This document shows, one piece after another, positions 7,203-59,256 of a stretch of 64,000 nt of DNA. Under the pieces are notes generated by a model. The model saw only the letters and a list, made by a program, of their open reading frames with translations, was not told where the DNA came from and searched no databases. The stretch comes from an uncultured Blautia sp. (GTDB lineage: Bacteria > Bacillota > Clostridia > Lachnospirales > Lachnospiraceae), in assembly GCA_946557785.1 (NCBI GenBank), contig CAMNTH010000014.1, positions 1 through 64,000 on the forward strand. Direction: 5' to 3'. The position numbers and the translations under genes are program-made. Each line of letters starts with the position of its first letter. Within the stretch, counting starts at the first letter, position 1.

Positions 7203-7609
7203 TTTTCAATCTTCACTTCTACAAGAGCAGCATTTCCCAGCTCAGCGCTGAAAGAGAGCTTGCCGCCAAGGTTGGTTTTTACCTTTCCAGTATCAAGACC
7301 ATCAATAAAAATGCGATATTCTGTATCAGCTTCCATTTCTACTGTAATCTGGGCATCTTCCTGCCCTTCAACCTGGAAACGCATTACAGAACCATCCTGT
7401 TCCAGATTAAAAACAGATGTTCCTGGTACAGATTCGTATACAAACATTCCATTACGTTCCAGCTTTGTAATTTCCTGAAATGTCTTTACTTTATAGATGT
7501 CACCCTGATGCTGATAATCAGATAATTTTGATTTCTGTGCCAGTTCGTAATTTCCAAAGCTGATGCTTCCATTTTCTTCTGTACGGATCAGTTCCTTTAC
7601 TACTGCCAT
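7196..7609 (-). CDS. Conserved hypothetical protein coupled to radA
   Basis: A 137-residue protein with no signal peptide or membrane helix and a pattern of short beta strands (for example YRIFIDG, KLSFSAEL, VEVKIEK), suggesting a small all-beta domain. I do not recognise a catalytic motif. Comparable short proteins in Lachnospiraceae are sometimes auto-labelled endosialidase, but nothing here supports that activity. A GGGAGG site precedes the ATG by about 10 bp. The gene overlaps radA by 7 bp and lies between clpC and radA, hinting at a stress- or recombination-related role, which is inference. Confidence 0.75.
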   Translation of the reverse strand: MAVVKELIRTEENGSISFGNYELAQKSKLSDYQHQGDIYKVKTFQEITKLERNGMFVYESVPGTSVFNLEQDGSVMRFQVEGQEDAQITVEMEADTEYRIFIDGLDTGKVKTNLGGKLSFSAELGNAALVEVKIEKC

Positions 7610-44590: not shown

Positions 44591-46960
44591 TCAAGCATCT
44601 CCTGGCATCTGTTCTTTAATGCTGTTCCAAAATTCCTTAAGCGTTTTTTCCAGATTTTCTATACGGCATCTCTTCATATCTGACCACTCAGCCGGAAATA
44701 AATTCCGGTAATCCATATTCCCAAACCGGTCGTCCAAAAGCAGAATAGCTCCCACATCTGCCTTCGTGCGGATTACGCGTCCTGCAGCCTGCAAAACCTT
44801 ATTCATGCCTGGATAACGGTATGCATAGTCAAATCCGTTCTCCCCATGACCATCGTAATACTGCTTCAGGATTTCTCTTTCGTTCCCAATCTGAGGAAGT
44901 CCTGTTCCTACTATGATGGCACCGATCAGCCGTTCCCCCATCAGGTCTATTCCTTCGGAAAAAATCCCTCCCAGCACGCAAAAACCAAGAAGCGCTTTAT
45001 CCTGCACTGCAAATTCCCCAAGGAATTCTTCCCGCTCCCTTTCATTCATAGAGGAAGTCTGGCAAATACAGCGCACCCAATCCGCCGAAAATTCCTGCTC
45101 ATAGATCTCATATACGTTCTCCATTAATTTATATGAAGGAAAAAACACCATATAGTTTCCTTTTTTTTGCCAGGCCGTCCTTGCAATATATTCTGCAATT
45201 TTACGGTATTCTTCATAATTTCTTCTGGTATAGCGGCTGCTTACATCCATGGCAGTCAAAATACAGCGCTTGTTGCTGTCAAAAGGAGACTGCACATAAA
45301 TCCCAAAATCATCCGCCCTGGTGCTTAGAAGCTTTCTATAATATGCCATCGGAAGCAGCGTGGCGGAAAAAAACACAGTACCGGTTCCCTTTTTCAGGTA
45401 AGCGCTTAAATTCGATGCCGGATTTACACAAAACAGCTTCATACGGAATTTCCCGTCTTCACCGTTTTCCGTATATACCACGTAATTCTCATCTACAAGC
45501 TCCGCAATATTCAAAAAATCTCTTACGCAGAAATAGAAATCCATGATTTCCTCTATCACGTCCTCCCCCGCCATTTCCTCCAGAAGCTTATCCATCTCCC
45601 CCTGGACTGTCAGAAGAGACAGGGGAAGGGTGCCTGGATTGTCCAGTACCTGAAAATTCCCACATTCCTTTTTCAGCTCCAAAAGCTGCTTATTCACTCT
45701 TTCCAAAGCCCGCCCAAGCCTTGGACTATGGGGCTTTACCTTTTTTTTGATCTCCAGCACTTCTTCTTTGCAGATGGATACACTGTACATCTCCCGTGCT
45801 CTTTCCACAAGATTATGCGCTTCATCAATAAGAAAAATATACTCCCCGGAAACGCTTTCCCCAAAGAACCTCTTCAGATGCACATTGGGGTCAAAAGCAT
45901 AATTATAGTCACAGATAATGCCGTCTACCCAAAGCGCAAGATCCAGACACATCTCAAATGGGCAGACCTTCCACTCTTCTGCGTGATTTCGGATGGTATC
46001 CCTGTCATAGGTCTGGTGTGTTGTCCACAGTTCAAAAACAGCATCATTCACCCTGTCAAAATGCCCCTTTGCATAGTCACAGGTCAGTGGACTGCACTGC
46101 GCTTTCTCACAAAAACAAAGCTTCTCTTTCGCAGTGATGGTAACCACCTGAAATTTCAGCCCGTTGTGCTGTAAAATGCGAAACGCTTCTTCTGCCACAG
46201 TTCTGGTAATGGTCTTGGCTGTAAGGTAAAAAATGGTTTGACCCTTTCCTTCCCCCACTGCACGCACCGCCGGAAAAACCGTTGACATGGTTTTTCCTAC
46301 GCCTGTGGGAGCCTGGATAAAAATCTGCTTCCTCTTGGAAATGGCATGGTAAACGCTGCTTACCATTTTTCTCTGCCCTTCCCTGTATGAAAAGGGAAAT
46401 TCCAGTCCTTCCATAGATCTGTTTCTCTCCTTTTGCCATGCAAGGCGGCGGGAAACCCATTTATGGTAGGAATCCATAAGCTTCTGATACCACTCTTCCA
46501 GTTCCAGGAGGGATATTGTTTCACGGAAACGTCGGATTTCCTCCGTATCCAGATTTGCGTAGGTCATCTGGATCCCCACATTTGAAATTCCTTTCATTTC
46601 CCCATAGATCCGGGCATAGCACATAGCCTGTGCCTTATGTACAGCCGCCGGTTCCTCCAGATGAGATACATTTTTGTAAGTCCCTTTAATCTCATCAATG
46701 AATACGGCATCCCCTTCTGAAAAAATGCCGTCTGCTCTGCCCTCCACCAAGATAATCAAATCCTCATATTCGGTTTCTTTTTTCAGGGAAACCTCCGAAG
46801 CATAATTGCCGCCCATTTGTTTCTGTATTTTTCGGTGAAGGCGGCTTCCCTTCTGCATAGCTTCTTTATCCACAGAGCCTCTTGTGCTGTCCAGGTCACC
46901 GCTTCGTAAAATAAATTCTACAAGATTTCGAACGGAAACACGAATAACTGGTTTTTCCAT
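44591..46960 (-). CDS. XPD/DinG-like helicase with N-terminal PD-(D/E)XK nuclease
   Basis: A 789-residue fusion. Residues 1-170 look like a Cas4/RecB-type nuclease: His42, EGRADGIF (Asp77), then DEIK (89-92) and QAMCYARIY. Residues 190-789 are a superfamily 2 helicase of the XPD/DinG class, with Walker A APTGVGKT (217-224) and DEAH (379-382). The cysteine cluster is CFCEKAQCSPLTC (282-294), with Cys333 and Cys338 nearby, suiting a [4Fe-4S] cluster. The C-terminal motifs are SEGIDLMGE and QAAGRVIRT. It should translocate 5-prime to 3-prime on single strands and may cut DNA. It is monocistronic. Confidence 0.88.
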   Translation of the reverse strand: MEKPVIRVSVRNLVEFILRSGDLDSTRGSVDKEAMQKGSRLHRKIQKQMGGNYASEVSLKKETEYEDLIILVEGRADGIFSEGDAVFIDEIKGTYKNVSHLEEPAAVHKAQAMCYARIYGEMKGISNVGIQMTYANLDTEEIRRFRETISLLELEEWYQKLMDSYHKWVSRRLAWQKERNRSMEGLEFPFSYREGQRKMVSSVYHAISKRKQIFIQAPTGVGKTMSTVFPAVRAVGEGKGQTIFYLTAKTITRTVAEEAFRILQHNGLKFQVVTITAKEKLCFCEKAQCSPLTCDYAKGHFDRVNDAVFELWTTHQTYDRDTIRNHAEEWKVCPFEMCLDLALWVDGIICDYNYAFDPNVHLKRFFGESVSGEYIFLIDEAHNLVERAREMYSVSICKEEVLEIKKKVKPHSPRLGRALERVNKQLLELKKECGNFQVLDNPGTLPLSLLTVQGEMDKLLEEMAGEDVIEEIMDFYFCVRDFLNIAELVDENYVVYTENGEDGKFRMKLFCVNPASNLSAYLKKGTGTVFFSATLLPMAYYRKLLSTRADDFGIYVQSPFDSNKRCILTAMDVSSRYTRRNYEEYRKIAEYIARTAWQKKGNYMVFFPSYKLMENVYEIYEQEFSADWVRCICQTSSMNEREREEFLGEFAVQDKALLGFCVLGGIFSEGIDLMGERLIGAIIVGTGLPQIGNEREILKQYYDGHGENGFDYAYRYPGMNKVLQAAGRVIRTKADVGAILLLDDRFGNMDYRNLFPAEWSDMKRCRIENLEKTLKEFWNSIKEQMPGDA

Positions 46961-47135: not shown

Positions 47136-47363
47136 TTATGCAACTGCAAATTTTGCAATGGTTCTGTCAAAATCCTTGTCTTCTCCATAGCATTTCACAG
47201 TCATCACTTTCGTCAGGTCCATGCTCAGAATTCCAAGGATTGATTTTGCATCAATAATAATCCGGTTATAAAAAATATCAATATCAAAATCACATTTGCT
47301 TGCTGCATTTACAAATTCTTTCACATCTCCTGCTGCCTGAAATCTAATCTGACATTCTTTCAT
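47136..47363 (-). CDS. HPr-fold protein lacking the phosphorylatable histidine
   Basis: A 75-residue protein with HPr-like length and pattern. The segment IIIDAKSILGILSMDL corresponds to the HPr NAKSIMGVMSL helix that carries regulatory Ser46. The N-terminal loop, which in PTS HPr reads GLHARPA, is AAGDVKEF here, so the catalytic His15 is missing. It cannot pass phosphate from enzyme I but could still be a serine-phosphorylated or structural regulator, as with Crh. The cytosolic role is unknown. It sits alone between two DNA-repair genes. Confidence 0.8.
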   Translation of the reverse strand: MKECQIRFQAAGDVKEFVNAASKCDFDIDIFYNRIIIDAKSILGILSMDLTKVMTVKCYGEDKDFDRTIAKFAVA

Positions 47364-47576: not shown

Positions 47577-48347
47577 TCAAAATTCCGGCATATTTGAACG
47601 AAATTTTAACGGGATCTGCTGCTGCTGAAGAGCAGGATTCCGCCTTTCCCAAACGGTAACGCTGCGGCAGAAGCATTTAAAAAGTTCCTCATATTCTTCT
47701 TTTTCACTTAACATATCCTTCTGCTCCTGAAGGAATTCCATATCCTTTTGTACAGAGCAAGTCCCGCCCTTAGGATGGAACAGGACTTTCTTTCTTCCTT
47801 CATCGTAGATCATCCAATTCTCTCTTGGGAACCGGTCTGCAAAATGAGGAGCAAGCATTTCCAAAATATCATTCTCCGGATTGATCTTAGAAAAAAGGAC
47901 TTTCCCTCCGATTTCCCGGAAACGCACAAATCCATAAAAGCGATGTAGCTCGTGCCATACCTTGATCCTAATCTTAGACACCATATTCACATCACTGTCA
48001 GAGAGATTCTCCATCACATGCCTGTCGCACCGCCTGCCGGAAAGCGCCTGCCAAAGTACCCGAAATACCAGGGTTCCCTTATCCGGATATGTGGAAACCG
48101 CCGCATAGCACAGGGTCTCATAAACTTCCTCTCCCAACTTCTCCCTGATTGTCCTAAGAACCTTCCCTGCCTTAATACTGTCAGAAACCACTTCCTCTAT
48201 GGTGGTAAAAAAATCCGGGTATTCCGGCTCCCTCACAGAAATTTCCACCGCCATTCCCCTCATGTGCCAGATCCATCCTTCATAAACAGCCGTAAAGATT
48301 CCCTCTATATGATCCTCGCATACCAGGATCTTCTTTTCATAATCCAT
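47577..48347 (-). CDS. DUF4130 putative DNA-repair protein (TIGR03915-type)
   Basis: A 256-residue soluble protein partnered with the radical SAM gene. Features are the N-terminal DHIEGIFTAVYEGW, the DUF4130 core MVSKIRIKVWHELHRFYGFVRF, INPENDILEMLAPHFADRFP, and the C-terminal ERRNPALQQQQIP with FRSNMPEF. In other bacteria DUF4130 is found fused to a family 4-like uracil-DNA glycosylase, which links it to base repair. Activity is unproven. The start at 48347 has GGAGG 5 bp upstream and overlaps the radical SAM gene by 11 bp. Confidence 0.9.
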   Translation of the reverse strand: MDYEKKILVCEDHIEGIFTAVYEGWIWHMRGMAVEISVREPEYPDFFTTIEEVVSDSIKAGKVLRTIREKLGEEVYETLCYAAVSTYPDKGTLVFRVLWQALSGRRCDRHVMENLSDSDVNMVSKIRIKVWHELHRFYGFVRFREIGGKVLFSKINPENDILEMLAPHFADRFPRENWMIYDEGRKKVLFHPKGGTCSVQKDMEFLQEQKDMLSEKEEYEELFKCFCRSVTVWERRNPALQQQQIPLKFRSNMPEF

Positions 48348-49656
48348 ATGCACCTCCAGCCTGCAGCATACTCTGATCGTCAAACAGGGAAAGCTGCCTG
48401 TAGGTAATCTCAGATTGGTGTATGGGAAGCTTCTCCTTAGGATCCAGCATATTCCGTACAATATAATCTTCATCCAGCTTCGTAGGATACATCATTTTTC
48501 CGTTGCAGGTAATAAAATACAGGGCGCGCTTCATAACCACACCGATCTTCTTCAGATCAGGGAAATCCAGGGAATGGTATCTCCGCGCTCCCAAGATTCT
48601 GGATGCAGACTTGGTTCCGATTCCAGGAACCCGCAGAAGCGTCCTGTAATCAGCAGAATTAATCTCTACAGGAAAGCATTCCAAATGGCTCACCGCCCAA
48701 TCGCACTTGGGATCAAGAAGGAGATTAAAGTTGGGGTGCTTTTCCGAAACAAGCTCCTCTGCACGAAATCCATAGAACCTAAGGAGCCAGTCCGCCTGAT
48801 ACAGCCTGTGTTCCCGAAGAAGCGGCGGTCCCTGGGGCAGCATAGGAAGGGCACTATCCTGGTTCACAGCTACAAAGGCTGAATAAAAAACACGCTTCAG
48901 AGAATACTGCTGATAAAGGGCTTCTGCCACTGCCACGATCTGATAATCGCTCTCTCCCGTTGCACCGATGATCATCTGCGTACTCTGTCCTGCGGGTGCA
49001 AACTTCGGTGCATGGCGGTACAGAGCCAGCTCCTCCTTATTCTCCATATGGCGTACCTGGATCTGCTTCATTGGCTTTAAGATGGTTCTGCGGCTTTTAT
49101 TAGGGGCAAGGCGCTTCAGTCCTTCCGAAGTAGGCAGCTCTAAGTTTACGCTCATTCTGTCTGCTAAAAATCCAGCCCTCTCTATAAGTTTTGGAGAAGC
49201 TCCCGGGATGGCCTTCATATGGATATACCCCTGAAAATGGTACTTGTCCCGAAGAAGTTCTACGGCTCTTATCATCTCTTCCATTGTGGCATCAGGGCTT
49301 CCTTTTACTCCAGAGCTTAAGAATAATCCTTCTATATAATTACGTCTGTAAAATTCAATGGTAAGCCTGCTGACTTCCTCAGGCGTGAAGCTGGCACGCA
49401 CAACATCATTAGACACACGGTTCACACAATATTTACAGTCAAAAACGCATTCATTAGTATAAAGAATCTTCAAAAGGCTGATGCACCGCCCGTCCCCTGC
49501 AAAGCTATGGCAGATTCCGGGATGAATGCTGTTGCCGATCCCTTTTCCGTCTCCCTTTCGGTCCACGCCGCTGGAAGTACATGCCACATCATACTTCGCT
49601 GCATCGGAAAGGATCTCCAGCTTCTCCATAATGCTCATTGATTCCTGAATAATCAT
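48337..49656 (-). CDS. Radical SAM protein, putative DNA modification/repair (TIGR03916-type)
   Basis: A 439-residue radical SAM enzyme with Cys70, Cys74 and Cys77 in CVFDCKYC for the [4Fe-4S]-SAM cluster. A helix-hairpin-helix motif LLRVPGIGTKSASRIL (about 340-355), a non-specific DNA-binding element, follows. Near the C-terminus stands QLSLF (about 421-425), a match to the beta-sliding-clamp-binding motif. These argue for a DNA substrate. The start at 49656 has GGAGG 5 bp upstream. It is the first gene of a two-gene operon whose promoter carries LexA-like boxes. The chemistry is unknown, and spore photoproduct lyase is a distant analogue only. Confidence 0.9.
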   Translation of the reverse strand: MIIQESMSIMEKLEILSDAAKYDVACTSSGVDRKGDGKGIGNSIHPGICHSFAGDGRCISLLKILYTNECVFDCKYCVNRVSNDVVRASFTPEEVSRLTIEFYRRNYIEGLFLSSGVKGSPDATMEEMIRAVELLRDKYHFQGYIHMKAIPGASPKLIERAGFLADRMSVNLELPTSEGLKRLAPNKSRRTILKPMKQIQVRHMENKEELALYRHAPKFAPAGQSTQMIIGATGESDYQIVAVAEALYQQYSLKRVFYSAFVAVNQDSALPMLPQGPPLLREHRLYQADWLLRFYGFRAEELVSEKHPNFNLLLDPKCDWAVSHLECFPVEINSADYRTLLRVPGIGTKSASRILGARRYHSLDFPDLKKIGVVMKRALYFITCNGKMMYPTKLDEDYIVRNMLDPKEKLPIHQSEITYRQLSLFDDQSMLQAGGAYGL

Positions 49657-49675
49657 ATTGCCCTCCGCTCTCTTG

Positions 49676-49689
49676 CAAACACCTGTTCT
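49676..49689 (-). promoter_or_regulatory. LexA-like (SOS) box 1
   Basis: The minus strand reads AGAACAGGTGTTTG, matching the Gram-positive LexA consensus CGAAC-RNRY-GTTYG in 13 of 14 positions. It lies just downstream of the -10, around the transcription start. Confidence 0.7.
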
Positions 49690-49695
49690 TTTTAT

Positions 49696-49724
49696 ATTAT
49701 AAATCAAACAGGTGTTTGTGTCAA
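49696..49724 (-). promoter_or_regulatory. Promoter of the radical SAM-DUF4130 operon
   Basis: The minus strand reads TTGACA (49719-49724), 17 bp, TATAAT (49696-49701): full sigma-A consensus. The spacer is filled by LexA-like box 2. Confidence 0.85.
49705..49718 (-). promoter_or_regulatory. LexA-like (SOS) box 2 in the promoter spacer
   Basis: The plus strand reads CAAACAGGTGTTTG, a 13 of 14 match to CGAAC-RNRY-GTTYG (12 of 14 on the other strand). It occupies the spacer between -35 and -10 exactly. With box 1 it forms a 12-bp inverted repeat around the -10. Repressor bound here would occlude polymerase. Confidence 0.7.
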
Positions 49725-54310: not shown

Positions 54311-57300
54311 TTACAGGAAATCAAAAAGACAAAGCTGGCTGGCAGCCTCCACTGCTTTTGGCTTTCCGGCAGTCCTTTTTTCCATGCATTCCCCGGAAAA
54401 CTCCGTGAGAAAGGGAGATGGCTCTTTGGCATAAGTAAGAATCAGTTCCTCCTTTGCTCTGGTCATTCCTACATAAAGCAGACGGCGTTCTTCTTCCTGG
54501 TCAGCAGGGTGCTTTTCTCTTTCCAATGGGATCTCTCCCTTGCCTGTTCCGTACAGGATGACAGCCGGAAACTCCAGCCCCTTGGAGCCGTGAAGGGTCA
54601 TAAGGGACACAGCATCCGCCTGATAAGTTTTTCCTCCGCACCGTTTTAAGTCCCCTTCTTCTCCCAAAAGAAGCGCTTCCAAAAAGGCGGGCAGATTCTC
54701 ATAGCATATAGCCATTGAAATCAGGCTTAAAAGCTCAGGGCTATTTTCCTTTTCCAGATCCTTGGCCCACTCTTTTAAAAGAGTACCTGTCTTCGCCCGT
54801 TTCCATTTCCTGTCATACTTTTCTGCCATATTTTCATAAATAGGTTCCCCAAGGGCACTCTCGTCTAAATCCCACAAAAGACGGATGGCTTCTTCTTTAT
54901 ATGAAGCAGCAGCCGGATCTGCCAGGGAACGGAAAAAGGCAATGGTCCCCCGCACCAGGGGCTTAATAAGAAAGTCTTCCCTTCCCCGTACAACGTAAGG
55001 GATTCCCTCCTGGCTTAAGCATTTTTCCAGAAGCTTTGCCTGGTGGTGCGTCCTGTATAAAATGGCAATGTCCCGGAAGGAATACGTTTTTCGATCCTCC
55101 CGGAAAATTTCCCGCTGCTGCGTATCCAGCATGTCGATTCCGCCCATCAGGCGGCCGATTTCCTTGGCTGCAAAAATAGCCTCGGACCTCTTGGAGCTGG
55201 CATTTACAACCTGCACCGGACCCCCTTTTCCCTTATGGGAGATCAGACTCCTTGGTTCTCCAGGGTTATGGGAAATCAGCTGCATGGCAGACTCTGTAAT
55301 GGACGCTGTACTACGGTAATTTTCTCTTAGTTTTATCACTGTAAGATTCGGATAATAAAGCTTTAATTTGTCAAAGCATCCAGCATCTGATCCCCGGAAA
55401 CCGTAAATGGACTGATCCGGATCCCCGATCACAAACAGCTCTCTTCCATGGGCATTCCATGCCATGATCAGTTCAAGCTGCAGGGGACTGATGTCCTGAA
55501 ATTCGTCTACCAGAAGATATGGAAGAGGTTTGTCTTCTTTCTTGGCAAGCTCCAGAGCTTCCGCCAAAAGATCATCAAAATCAAGCATTTTTTTCTCTTT
55601 TAATTTAGATTGGTAAGCCCCAAATGCAGGTTCCGGCTCTCGGCAGCCTGCTTTCCACAGAGAAAGAAGACGTAAGAATTCTCCTGCCTGAATCTCCAAT
55701 CTGTATTGTGCACAAATCTCTTTTGCAATTGCCAGTGTCTCCTCCGGCAGTGCCAAAGAAAAATCCATGCCGTTTTTTTGAAGCAAGGCAAGACTTAAGG
55801 AGTGGAAGGTTCCGATATTCATTCGCTGAATGCTTTTCCCCTTTCCAAGCTTTTCTGCAAGACGTTCCTTCATTTCTGCGGCTGCCTGATTGGTAAAAGT
55901 CACTGCTGTAATTTCAGAGGGCTTTACTTTTCGGTGTTCCAGCAGGTACAAAATTCTGGATACAAGAGTTTTGGTCTTTCCTGTGCCTGGACCTGCGATA
56001 ACCGCCACGGCTCTGTCAATGGCTTCCACAGCCTGCTTCTGCCGCGTATTTAATAAAAGGTTTCCAATCTCCGGCCCTTTCTTAGAATTGTATGGAAGCT
56101 CATTCTCCAGGCTTTCCTCTTTGGCAAAAGAAACCGTTTCCTTTGCTTCTTCGATCTGCCACTGTCCCATGCCTTCAAATAGGCTCATCTGCCCGTCCGG
56201 ACTTTGGATTTCATCGTTTTCAAACAGTTTGATAGTTCCGTATTCCCCGTCAAAGCCCGGCCTTCTGATTACCTCTCCTGCACGCAGACGGCGGATTCCT
56301 TCTGCTATCAGATATCCTGTTTCTTTCCGGATATCTTCCACGGGAATCTCACGCAGAATAGAAAACTCTGCACCTAAGGAAGCCAGCATCTTCTCATAAT
56401 CTTCACGCACTTTTTTGCTGGCAGAGGAACGGCCTGTGGAGGCCGAAATAACCTCAGGCAGCGGAACCAGATTCTCAAAAGGTCTGGCATCTTCTTTTTC
56501 AAAGCCATCCTCCCGATCAGATAGCTGCACGATTCTGTGATCCACGCCCATCGTGAGTTTTTTGCCGCACACAGGACATCTTCCATGATACTTTTCCGCC
56601 TCTCTTGGGCTTAAACAAATATGGCACTTCCTGTGTCCGTCATAATGATACTTCCCCTCTTCCGGAAAAAATTCAATGGTTCCTTCCAGGCCTTTTCCTT
56701 CCTGTATAGCAGCAGAAAGTCCCTGATAGGATTGTTCTATATCCAGAAGATTTGCCTCCCGGCCAAGTTTTCCAGGGGAATGGGCATCGGAATTAGATAT
56801 AAGCTGAAATCTATCCAGGGCAGAAATCCTCCAGTTCATGGAAGGATCCGAGGAAAGTCCTGTTTCCAGCGCACGAATATAAGGGGTGAGATCCTCAAAG
56901 CATTCTTCTATGGTATCAAAGCCTGACATGGCACCGAACAGGGAGAAATGAGGAGTCCAAATATGGGCAGGAACCAGGATTCCTTCCGGACAGGTTTCCA
57001 GCAGGATCTCCAGAAGATCACGGCAGTCAAGGCCAAGGATCGGCCTACCGTCAGAATGGATATTTCCGATCATCTCCAGCTTTTTGGAAAGCTTCTCTGC
57101 GTCCTCAAGGCCGGGCAGCAGGATCAGGCTGTGGACCTTTCTTGTTTTTCCATTCTTCTTATAAATAGAGCTGATCTCACCAGTAACTACAAACCTGGGG
57201 GATGTATCGGAAAAAGTACTGGCTTCTGAAAGGACATACGCATCCTTCAGCTTATATAAGCCGTCCTCCGTCATTTCAAGGCGTCCTTTCAGATCCTCTC

Positions 57301-57445
57301 TCCATGCAGGATGGGTAAAATCCCCTGTTCCCACAATAGAAATCCCCTTTTTCCTGGCCCACAGATCCAGATGCTCCGGAGTTCCCTCCTTACTGGTAGC
57401 CATAGAATATCTGGAATGTATATGCAAGTCAGCTATCTGTTTCAT
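54311..57445 (-). CDS. EndoQ-like PHP nuclease fused to UvrD-type helicase
   Basis: A 1044-residue two-part protein. Residues 1-400 match the EndoQ/TIGR00375 family: PHP motif ADLHIHSRYS (metal His8 and His10), GTGDFTHP, HIWTPHFSLFG, and SNSDAH (219-222). A zinc ribbon follows (Cys274, Cys277, Cys290, Cys293). EndoQ nicks DNA 5-prime to deaminated bases. Residues 460-1044 are a UvrD/PcrA superfamily 1 helicase with Walker A AGPGTGKT (484-491), VDEFQDISPLQ, KLRENYRST and MTLHGSKGLEFPAV. Two clamp-like motifs stand out: QMSLF (419-423) at the junction and QLCLF (1037-1041) at the end. It is the last gene of an operon with dinB and mntP. Confidence 0.9.
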   Translation of the reverse strand: MKQIADLHIHSRYSMATSKEGTPEHLDLWARKKGISIVGTGDFTHPAWREDLKGRLEMTEDGLYKLKDAYVLSEASTFSDTSPRFVVTGEISSIYKKNGKTRKVHSLILLPGLEDAEKLSKKLEMIGNIHSDGRPILGLDCRDLLEILLETCPEGILVPAHIWTPHFSLFGAMSGFDTIEECFEDLTPYIRALETGLSSDPSMNWRISALDRFQLISNSDAHSPGKLGREANLLDIEQSYQGLSAAIQEGKGLEGTIEFFPEEGKYHYDGHRKCHICLSPREAEKYHGRCPVCGKKLTMGVDHRIVQLSDREDGFEKEDARPFENLVPLPEVISASTGRSSASKKVREDYEKMLASLGAEFSILREIPVEDIRKETGYLIAEGIRRLRAGEVIRRPGFDGEYGTIKLFENDEIQSPDGQMSLFEGMGQWQIEEAKETVSFAKEESLENELPYNSKKGPEIGNLLLNTRQKQAVEAIDRAVAVIAGPGTGKTKTLVSRILYLLEHRKVKPSEITAVTFTNQAAAEMKERLAEKLGKGKSIQRMNIGTFHSLSLALLQKNGMDFSLALPEETLAIAKEICAQYRLEIQAGEFLRLLSLWKAGCREPEPAFGAYQSKLKEKKMLDFDDLLAEALELAKKEDKPLPYLLVDEFQDISPLQLELIMAWNAHGRELFVIGDPDQSIYGFRGSDAGCFDKLKLYYPNLTVIKLRENYRSTASITESAMQLISHNPGEPRSLISHKGKGGPVQVVNASSKRSEAIFAAKEIGRLMGGIDMLDTQQREIFREDRKTYSFRDIAILYRTHHQAKLLEKCLSQEGIPYVVRGREDFLIKPLVRGTIAFFRSLADPAAASYKEEAIRLLWDLDESALGEPIYENMAEKYDRKWKRAKTGTLLKEWAKDLEKENSPELLSLISMAICYENLPAFLEALLLGEEGDLKRCGGKTYQADAVSLMTLHGSKGLEFPAVILYGTGKGEIPLEREKHPADQEEERRLLYVGMTRAKEELILTYAKEPSPFLTEFSGECMEKRTAGKPKAVEAASQLCLFDFL

Positions 57446-58047: not shown

Positions 58048-59256
58048 TCATTCTTCCTCAATTTTATGTACATCCGAAATTTTCTTTTCTGCTTCCAGTT
58101 CTGCAGCTGTTTTGATGATTTCGGAGCCATATTTTTGGCGAAGCTTAAACAGTTTTTCGTTCAGCTTGTCCTTTTTTTCATTTTTTGCGATGTTCTCCAT
58201 ATTCCAGAGGGAAATCTGCTCCTCCCTTACCTGGGTAAAGTTTCCAACCCCCACCCCTACAAGGCGGATGGGCGCAATGGTAATCCTGTCAAGCTGTTTT
58301 AATGCCCCATGGTAAATATCTTCCATGCGGTTTGTGGGCTCTAACGTTTCCGAGCGAGTGATCCCCCGCATATTGGCGTAGGTAATCTTCAGGGTTACTG
58401 TCTGCCCGTAAAGGCCGGCTGACTGAAGCTTCAGGCTCAGTTCCTTAGAAAAAAGAAGAAGATAGCTCTTAATATATTCCAGATCTGCTGAATCATGCTG
58501 AAAGGTATGCTCCCTGCTGATGGACTTCGCTTCAGACTCATAATAAGGAATCACTTCCCTGTCATCAATCCCCTGTGCCATCTCCACAATCTGCTCTCCT
58601 CTTTTTCCAAACACTTCGATCACCTGTTTTTGATTGTCCAAAATCTCCTTCACCCTGTAAATTTTCATTTGATGGAGCTTCTCTGAGGATTTCGTCCCCA
58701 CGCCCAAAAGACATTCAATCTTCCGATTGCTCACCAGTCTCTGGAAAAATGCCTGATCCGCAACCTCAAAAAAACCATCTGGCTTCTTTTCTTCACTGGA
58801 AAATTTAGCCGCAGCTTTGCTGTAGCCGATTCCAACGGAGCAGGTAAGCCCCTCCTGGCTGCGGGTACGCTCCTTGATCTTCCAGGCAATTTCCGATGCG
58901 CTTCCAAAAAGCCCCACTGTGCTGGTTACATCAAGATACCCCTCATCCAGTGACAGGTATTCGATCACATCCGTATAAGTGCTCCAGATTTCATGGATGG
59001 CTTTTGACGCGGCTTTATACTTATGCATATTGGGATGCATATAAATCCCATGAGGGCAGCGCCTGTAGGCTTCTTTAATATTCATGGCAGACCGGACACC
59101 ATATTTCCTTGCCTCATAGCTGCATGTAGAAACCACTCCCCGCTCTGTAGGAAGAGCGCCGATGATCAGAGGCTTCCCCACAAGGGACGGATCGTCTCTG
59201 CTCTCTACTGCAGCAAAAAAGGCATCCATATCCACATGTATGATCTTTCTGTCCAT
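58048..59256 (-). CDS. dinB: DNA polymerase IV
   Basis: A 402-residue Y-family translesion polymerase. Motifs are [13 protein letters not shown] (catalytic Asp), [12 protein letters not shown] (Asp-Glu pair), the helix-hairpin-helix [15 protein letters not shown], and the little-finger domain. QISLW (347-351) matches the beta-clamp-binding motif in its usual place after the little finger. Length is about 50 residues above E. coli DinB owing to a charged tail. It follows the HAD gene by 33 bp. Confidence 0.95.

Follow-up and report, generated by a model that had tools for sequence, protein, structure and literature searches.

The locus analysed here lies on the minus strand of a 64,000-nucleotide stretch of DNA (the whole of which we call the window), and the genome around it is a 3.17-Mb draft. 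It consists of two genes. The first (48337-49656, minus strand) encodes a radical SAM protein of 439 aa, which matched the NCBIfam family TIGR03916 with 691.4 bits over the whole profile, compared to a cut-off of 343.5. The second (47577-48347, minus strand) encodes a protein of 256 aa, which matched the partner family TIGR03915 with 214.2 bits, compared to a cut-off of 112.25, and DUF4130 with an E value of 1.3e-44. Both proteins were thus far over the cut-offs of this NCBIfam pair. Among the matches listed, the nearest named relative of the radical SAM gene was found in a MAG of Blautia sp. with 95% identity. The start of the radical SAM gene was corrected to the ATG at 49656-49654, ahead of which a ribosome-binding site, GGAGGG, could be read directly (49661-49666, minus strand); residue numbers in the alignment of this protein are counted from one codon upstream (49659). 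The DUF4130 gene starts inside the radical SAM gene with an overlap of 11 bp and, by direct reading, has its own GGAGGTG, and therefore the translation of the pair is probably coupled.

Some neighbouring genes are also of note. A gene for an HPr-like protein of 75 aa (47136-47363) separates the pair from a helicase gene. This protein does not contain any histidine and scored under the NCBIfam cut-offs and above the Pfam PTS-HPr cut-off. The helicase gene (44591-46960), downstream of the pair on the same strand, encodes a Rad3/DinG-type protein of 789 aa, with about 190 additional N-terminal residues that by eye resemble a PD-(D/E)XK nuclease. Two more genes nearby on the same strand encode proteins that by eye resemble a PHP/UvrD-type helicase fusion (54311-57445), whose C-terminus QLCLFDFL is a possible clamp peptide, and a DinB-type polymerase (58048-59256).

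An earlier, sequence-only reading of the window had described a full-consensus promoter, TTGACA-N17-TATAAT, in front of the pair, with one LexA-like box in the spacer and another directly after the -10 hexamer. This arrangement was recovered when the minus strand was read from 49724 to 49676. The -35 hexamer TTGACA (49719-49724) is followed by a 17-nt spacer, of which the first 14 nt are box 1, CAAACACCTGTTTG (49718-49705), and then by the -10 hexamer TATAAT (49696-49701), 6 nt and box 2, AGAACAGGTGTTTG (49676-49689), which spans the expected transcription start. The two hexamers together scored 12/12 as a promoter, and each box agreed in 13 of 14 positions, as had been claimed, with CGAACRNRYGTTYG, the consensus used by that reading itself. 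With one mismatch allowed, this consensus matched three times in the window, two of the matches being these boxes, while shuffled sequences gave 0.31 matches on average and one in 100 reached three. With two mismatches allowed, no excess was found in the window (7 matches compared to 7.87 by chance), and the motif alone is thus weak evidence. We also scored the sites by a matrix built from the lexA promoters of relatives only, the genome of the window being excluded. Box 2 (15.1 bits) and box 1 (14.8 bits) ranked second and third among all sites in the window, and the top site (16.4 bits) was located at 7409 within a predicted coding frame. The boxes were weaker than is usual for the orthologs of the pair, for which the best site had a median of 19.2 bits, compared to 15.1 bits here. 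Taken alone, the count of boxes in the window is suggestive.

The lexA gene, which the sequence-only reading had left to be sought in the genome, is present (244 bits). The recA gene is present as well, and the LexA-like boxes AGAACAAAAGTTCT and CGAACATAGGTTCA lie ahead of it; those ahead of lexA, CGAACATATTTTCT and CGAATATTTGTTTG, were weaker, with 11.4 and 10.5 bits by the matrix of the relatives. The ruvAB genes have one more LexA-like box, about 72 bp upstream of ruvA, and a gene for a Y-family polymerase has another at its start. Across the whole genome, CGAACANNTGTTTG with one mismatch gave 15 matches versus 7. Beyond the promoter of the pair and lexA, ten loci had this motif. By eye, two of them were at or before SOS-type genes (ruvAB and the Y-family polymerase), and the remaining ones were within reading frames or before genes without an evident link. 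Two other patterns were tried and set aside: the loose GAACNNNNGTTY had 155 matches genome-wide versus 203 for a reversed control, showed no enrichment and was left out of the evidence, and MAAACANNTGTTTG with one mismatch had 44 versus 39, without a clear excess.

The sequence-only reading had expected the boxes to recur in front of orthologous pairs. We directly compared the upstream regions of 80 orthologous loci, the best 80 of at least 592 relatives, which are mostly from Lachnospiraceae and mutually related. GAAC-N4-GTTY occurred within 150 bp upstream in 71 of these loci and two or more times in 36 of them, giving 107 sites altogether. In 200 rounds of dinucleotide shuffling, the upstream regions had 0.69 sites on average and four at most, and each of the other 150-bp bins of the 80 loci contained between 0 and 4 sites. 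These shuffle statistics ignore the kinship among the loci, which is offset in part by the change of motif between clades described below. By the lexA-promoter matrix, 72/80 promoters had a site of at least 11 bits, compared to 0/80 coding controls, and a strict box was located within 400 bp upstream in 73/80 loci. The expectation also held in the family of the host, where the strict box was present in 24 of 26 further genomes. We regard this upstream conservation as the decisive evidence for the boxes. Their distances to the start codon vary widely, and thus the boxes appear to have been kept while the surrounding sequence changed. A promoter-like match of 9/12 or better was found at 56 loci; a box overlapped the promoter or start-site region in 48 of these and did not in 8.

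Nine of the 80 promoters had no strict box within 150 bp. Two of them (L099 and L125) had exact boxes within 400 bp, and six (L083, L087, L091, L130, L131 and L134) had boxes with one mismatch only, although such sites in 400 bp are weak evidence. The promoter of L090 was the sole case of the 80 in which no box was found in 400 bp even at one mismatch. A locus with a mis-assigned start codon (L132) was kept in the promoter counts and was excluded from the alignment (A1) and the counts of protein tails described below. We searched 20 genomes of the orthologs for lexA, 8 of them picked for a poor or distant box (that of L091 not being included) and 12 with a good box. The gene was found in 19, and the exception was the genome of L090, which also has the promoter without a box. 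For the further genomes of the family, the best-scoring 29 radical SAM loci and 29 lexA loci beside those of the window were used. The counts leave out L151 and L168, in which the lexA match was misplaced, L187, L195 and L208, which were too short, and L193, which is the window itself. The strict box was present in 22 of 27 lexA promoters of these genomes and absent from the other five when 300 bp was scanned. Two genomes of the family, G048 (93% complete, locus L203) and G064 (61% complete, locus L181), had boxes as well, but no lexA was detected in them. The undetected lexA is likely due to missing contigs.

More distant orthologs were found on plasmids. We took 19 of them from 60 of the 158 records with the gene and scored 18 for boxes; one from Gemmatirosa (L150), whose start was not annotated, was excluded. 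In the alphaproteobacterial orthologs, GTTC-N7-GTTC was found in 11/11 promoters and the Gram-positive box in 0/11, and 12 of the 13 copies of GTTC-N7-GTTC in 56.8 kb were within these promoters. The motif CTGT-N8-ACAG, which is used by the LexA of Burkholderiales too, was found in 3/3 betaproteobacterial orthologs, with no further copy in 15.6 kb. The Lachnospira ortholog had the Gram-positive box and that of Spirosoma a single match of the Gram-positive type. None of the searched box types was found in the orthologs of Acinetobacter, which to our knowledge has no LexA, and of Bacteroides. The first two sequenced Bacteroides genomes are described as lacking a LexA homolog (PMC8565304). The pair is kept in Acinetobacter, Bacteroides and Spirosoma despite their box pattern, and SOS control would thus not be obligatory for it. 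GTTC-N7-GTTC is given as the LexA motif of Alphaproteobacteria (PMC8565304) and CTGT-N8-ACAG as that of E. coli (PMC4234289). It appears that the type of box follows the LexA of each clade, and we consider this swap of motifs to be the strongest test of LexA.

The boxes could serve another regulator, for example an S24 repressor of the phage type or an unrelated protein that binds palindromes. In favour of this, the lexA model has a second match in this genome (97 bits, under the cut-off), and the boxes of the genome's own lexA are imperfect. However, a regulator of this kind would hardly account for a motif that shifts by clade as that of LexA does, and the boxes at the pair resemble those at recA, lexA and ruvAB in this genome and at lexA in the relatives. 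We regard the explanation as extremely improbable. Instead, the comparison of promoters indicates that the operon of the pair is almost certainly under the control of LexA, and we infer from it that LexA binds the boxes and that DNA damage induces both genes.

The radical SAM protein was compared directly across 80 aligned proteins, those of the window and 79 orthologs. The CxxxCxxC motif (C71, C75 and C78 in the numbering of the alignment; 49426-49449, minus strand) was invariant in 80/80 aligned proteins and in 16/16 of a cross-phylum set, and is expected to ligate the radical SAM [4Fe-4S] cluster. Three more cysteines near the N-terminus (C27, C50 and C59 in the same numbering; 49483-49581, minus strand) were invariant in 80/80 and in 15/16 of the cross-phylum set, and may hold a second metal site. 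The exception is the divergent Gemmatirosa homolog (L150), which lacks these three cysteines but retains CxxxCxxC and has QLSLW in its tail, and possibly belongs to a sister family. The helix-hairpin-helix that had been noticed in the window protein was recovered as a weak match. There is a match to HHH_3 at residues 331-362 (48574-48669, minus strand) with an E value of 9.5e-5, but its 22.9 bits are below the Pfam cut-off of 27. A search of PDB sequences gave weak matches to ComEA-like and RuvA chains for this region.

As a radical SAM protein linked to DNA repair, the TIGR03916 protein is similar to SplB. However, it has a helix-hairpin-helix, the N-terminal cysteine triad and a clamp peptide, and we know of no SplB with any of these three. 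No spore photoproduct lyase was found at E up to 1, either as a family in NCBIfam or as a chain in the search of PDB sequences. SplB is reported to be SOS-regulated in several species (PMC8565304).

The peptide QLSLF, claimed by the sequence-only reading as a clamp motif, is encoded at 48396-48382 (minus strand) near the C-terminus of the radical SAM protein and is conserved across the orthologs. In the direct comparison of the tails, Q was present in 80, S in 78, L in 70 and F in 79 of the 80 aligned proteins. The tail is otherwise variable, and at every position of the flanks (405-418 and 429-440) the commonest residue occurred in at most 43/80 proteins. The clamp pattern was found in 78 of the 80 proteins, with 80 instances in 4,552 residues of the tails compared to 11 in 31,600 residues of the bodies. 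In the predicted structure, the pLDDT was below 50 at residues 412-440, which include the QLSLF tail, compared to 84.7 for the whole model; such low values are expected for a flexible peptide. All 14 annotated plasmid orthologs had a C-terminal QLxL that was followed by F, L or I either directly or after one further residue, and 10 of the 14 had the strict pattern. In these proteins the peptide was at the C-terminus or not more than two residues from it, in the forms QLSLF, QLALF, QLTLF, QLSLL, QLQLL, QLSLI, QLALI, QLSLGF and QLLLDF (+ two residues). The clamp-binding consensus is given as QL[S/D]LF, and PolC of B. subtilis has exactly QLSLF as its C-terminal motif, with a KD of 3.8 uM for DnaN (PMC12309361). 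Judged by the position, conservation and sequence of this peptide, docking of the radical SAM protein on the sliding clamp is likely.

ImuB and DinB are under LexA control, and the pair of the window is by prediction likewise damage-induced and clamp-binding, although its protein belongs to the radical SAM family and is not of the polymerase type. The clamp motif of mycobacterial ImuB is QLPLWG and is required for damage-induced mutagenesis (PMC10421592). A paper that associates DUF4130 with uracil DNA glycosylases and with radical SAM proteins like SplB labels it, in a figure legend, a predicted mutagenesis-related enzyme (PMC3765255). Both the regulation and the type of clamp peptide of our pair match those of SOS polymerase factors. 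The pair could then be a tolerance or mutagenesis factor, tethered to the clamp like ImuB or DinB, that alters the lesion or base for translesion bypass and does not restore the original base. However, the operon here is without a polymerase, and a radical SAM enzyme need not be mutagenic. We consider this alternative unlikely and favour a pair that processes the lesion.

The pairing of the two genes was also compared directly. TIGR03916 and TIGR03915 passed their cut-offs in the identical 67 of 120 genomes of the host's family; in one more genome (G025), the radical SAM gene was represented by its C-terminal part alone and the DUF4130 match was absent. DUF4130 was located downstream on the same strand in 78/80 orthologous loci, and the gap between the two genes was at most 50 bp in 49 of the 72 cases measured, with 20 overlapping. 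The exceptions were L130 and L134, a pair of near-identical loci of Oscillospiraceae, which have the radical SAM protein with the clamp peptide and no recognisable DUF4130 downstream. Among the relatives found, the pair was present in Firmicutes, Proteobacteria and Bacteroidota. Hence, the two genes appear to form a near-obligate pair.

The DUF4130 proteins have few invariant residues and a conserved HF-DR and IYD core. No solved chain was matched by sequence, and no second family emerged from Pfam for these proteins, the other families shown matching one member each. In those alpha- and betaproteobacterial loci that have annotation, the partner proteins are labelled as UdgX family. The two that we checked (L146 and L147) are DUF4130-UdgX fusions, and eight more are UdgX family by annotation. 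UdgX proteins capture uracil or abasic sites. UdgX is reported to crosslink to abasic DNA (PMC10359453). It is therefore conceivable that the pair is a mere accessory to the processing of uracil or abasic sites by UdgX, for example in resolving UdgX-DNA crosslinks. However, DUF4130 was the only domain found in the partner protein of the window, which lacks the UDG domain of the UdgX fusion form (TIGR03914). The sole match to the UDG superfamily in this genome is an Ung-like enzyme (GQDPYH), and GAAC-N4-GTTY was absent from both strands of 3.5 kb around its gene; in this genome the pair is thus retained without UdgX. The DUF4130 proteins of 70 aligned orthologs were 250-286 aa long, which leaves no room for a UDG domain beside DUF4130. 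An accessory role to UdgX is therefore very improbable in our view, and a role of the pair's own in processing lesions is preferred. One unaligned DUF4130 protein (L068) was 433 aa long, with an insert ahead of the DUF4130 C-terminal end.

The alphaproteobacterial loci in our data encode TIGR03916 and then a UdgX-annotated protein (DUF4130 + UDG in L146), behind GTTC-N7-GTTC. COG4277 is presumably the TIGR03916 radical SAM/HhH family. The SOS operon COG1573-COG4277, which contains a UDG, is like our pair in having two genes behind a LexA-type motif (PMC8565304). The same source predicted the SOS control of this operon in Bacteroidetes by comparative genomics and cited Verrucomicrobia and Alphaproteobacteria. 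In comparison, the pair of the window has DUF4130 without UDG and boxes of the Gram-positive type. With the SOS control of a UDG-containing relative published, regulation of this kind has a precedent. The NCBIfam description of the pair, 'putative DNA modification/repair', is a name only, and the clamp tail is added here. In the titles and beginnings of abstracts of a part of the literature, we found no report of a clamp motif in TIGR03916 or of its LexA control in Firmicutes, and 'radical SAM' was absent from the accessible main text of a paper on the gut SOS meta-regulon (PMC3998124) and of one on LexA of C. difficile (PMC4234289). LexA control of the Lachnospiraceae form without UDG, together with the clamp tag, would therefore be what our comparison adds to the published picture.

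We suggest that the radical SAM enzyme of the pair is induced by the SOS response and recruited by the clamp for the processing of a DNA lesion at stalled forks, a reading that we consider moderately probable as a whole. In undamaged cells, LexA bound to the box in the spacer and to the box at the start site would shut this strong promoter to RNA polymerase. When RecA filaments form on damaged DNA, LexA would cleave itself, and the radical SAM and DUF4130 proteins would be produced together, probably by coupled translation. The C-terminal QLSLF peptide would then bring the radical SAM protein to the DnaN sliding clamp, and its helix-hairpin-helix would grip the DNA. At a stalled or just-passed fork, the 5'-deoxyadenosyl radical may act on a base lesion or a lesion-derived adduct, and DUF4130 may contribute lesion recognition or a second catalytic step. 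On the genomic evidence, we lean towards such a lesion-processing role of the pair.

A damage-switched system for the modification of DNA bases, rather than for repair, was also considered. Radical SAM enzymes are known to modify nucleic acids, which they methylate and methylthiolate, and the NCBIfam name of this family includes modification. However, neither protein matched any PADLOC family at E up to 1, and the clamp peptide, the three clade-specific types of LexA motif and the fusion to UdgX elsewhere point to the handling of damage. We regard base modification as quite improbable and keep to the processing of lesions.

The link to LexA, the co-occurrence of the genes and the clamp tail across phyla turn an 'unknown repair pair' into a testable claim, namely that of a lesion requiring radical chemistry at the clamp. 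If true, a radical-based step would join fork-associated DNA repair in gut commensals. More tentatively, it is possible that a radical SAM enzyme delivered by the clamp carries out SOS-induced, replisome-coupled radical chemistry across several phyla, using a second metal site and a novel type of partner, DUF4130. We know of no earlier case of replisome-coupled radical chemistry on DNA. In that event, the second metal site (C27, C50 and C59) would permit more than a reversal of the photoproduct type, and DUF4130 would be a new partner for lesion recognition or catalysis, which other bacteria fuse to UdgX.

A defence or phage origin of the pair was dropped, as there was no match in PADLOC and the radical SAM profile found two loci when run against IMG/VR. 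Over its first 100 residues, the DUF4130 protein (47577-48347) matched a phage family of unknown function in PHROGs (phrog_6306, E 1e-9). In one of the IMG/VR contigs (L221), no DUF4130-like frame was evident by eye in 0.8 kb downstream of the radical SAM homolog, which by eye comes after a phage-tail-like gene and ends in QLELFG.
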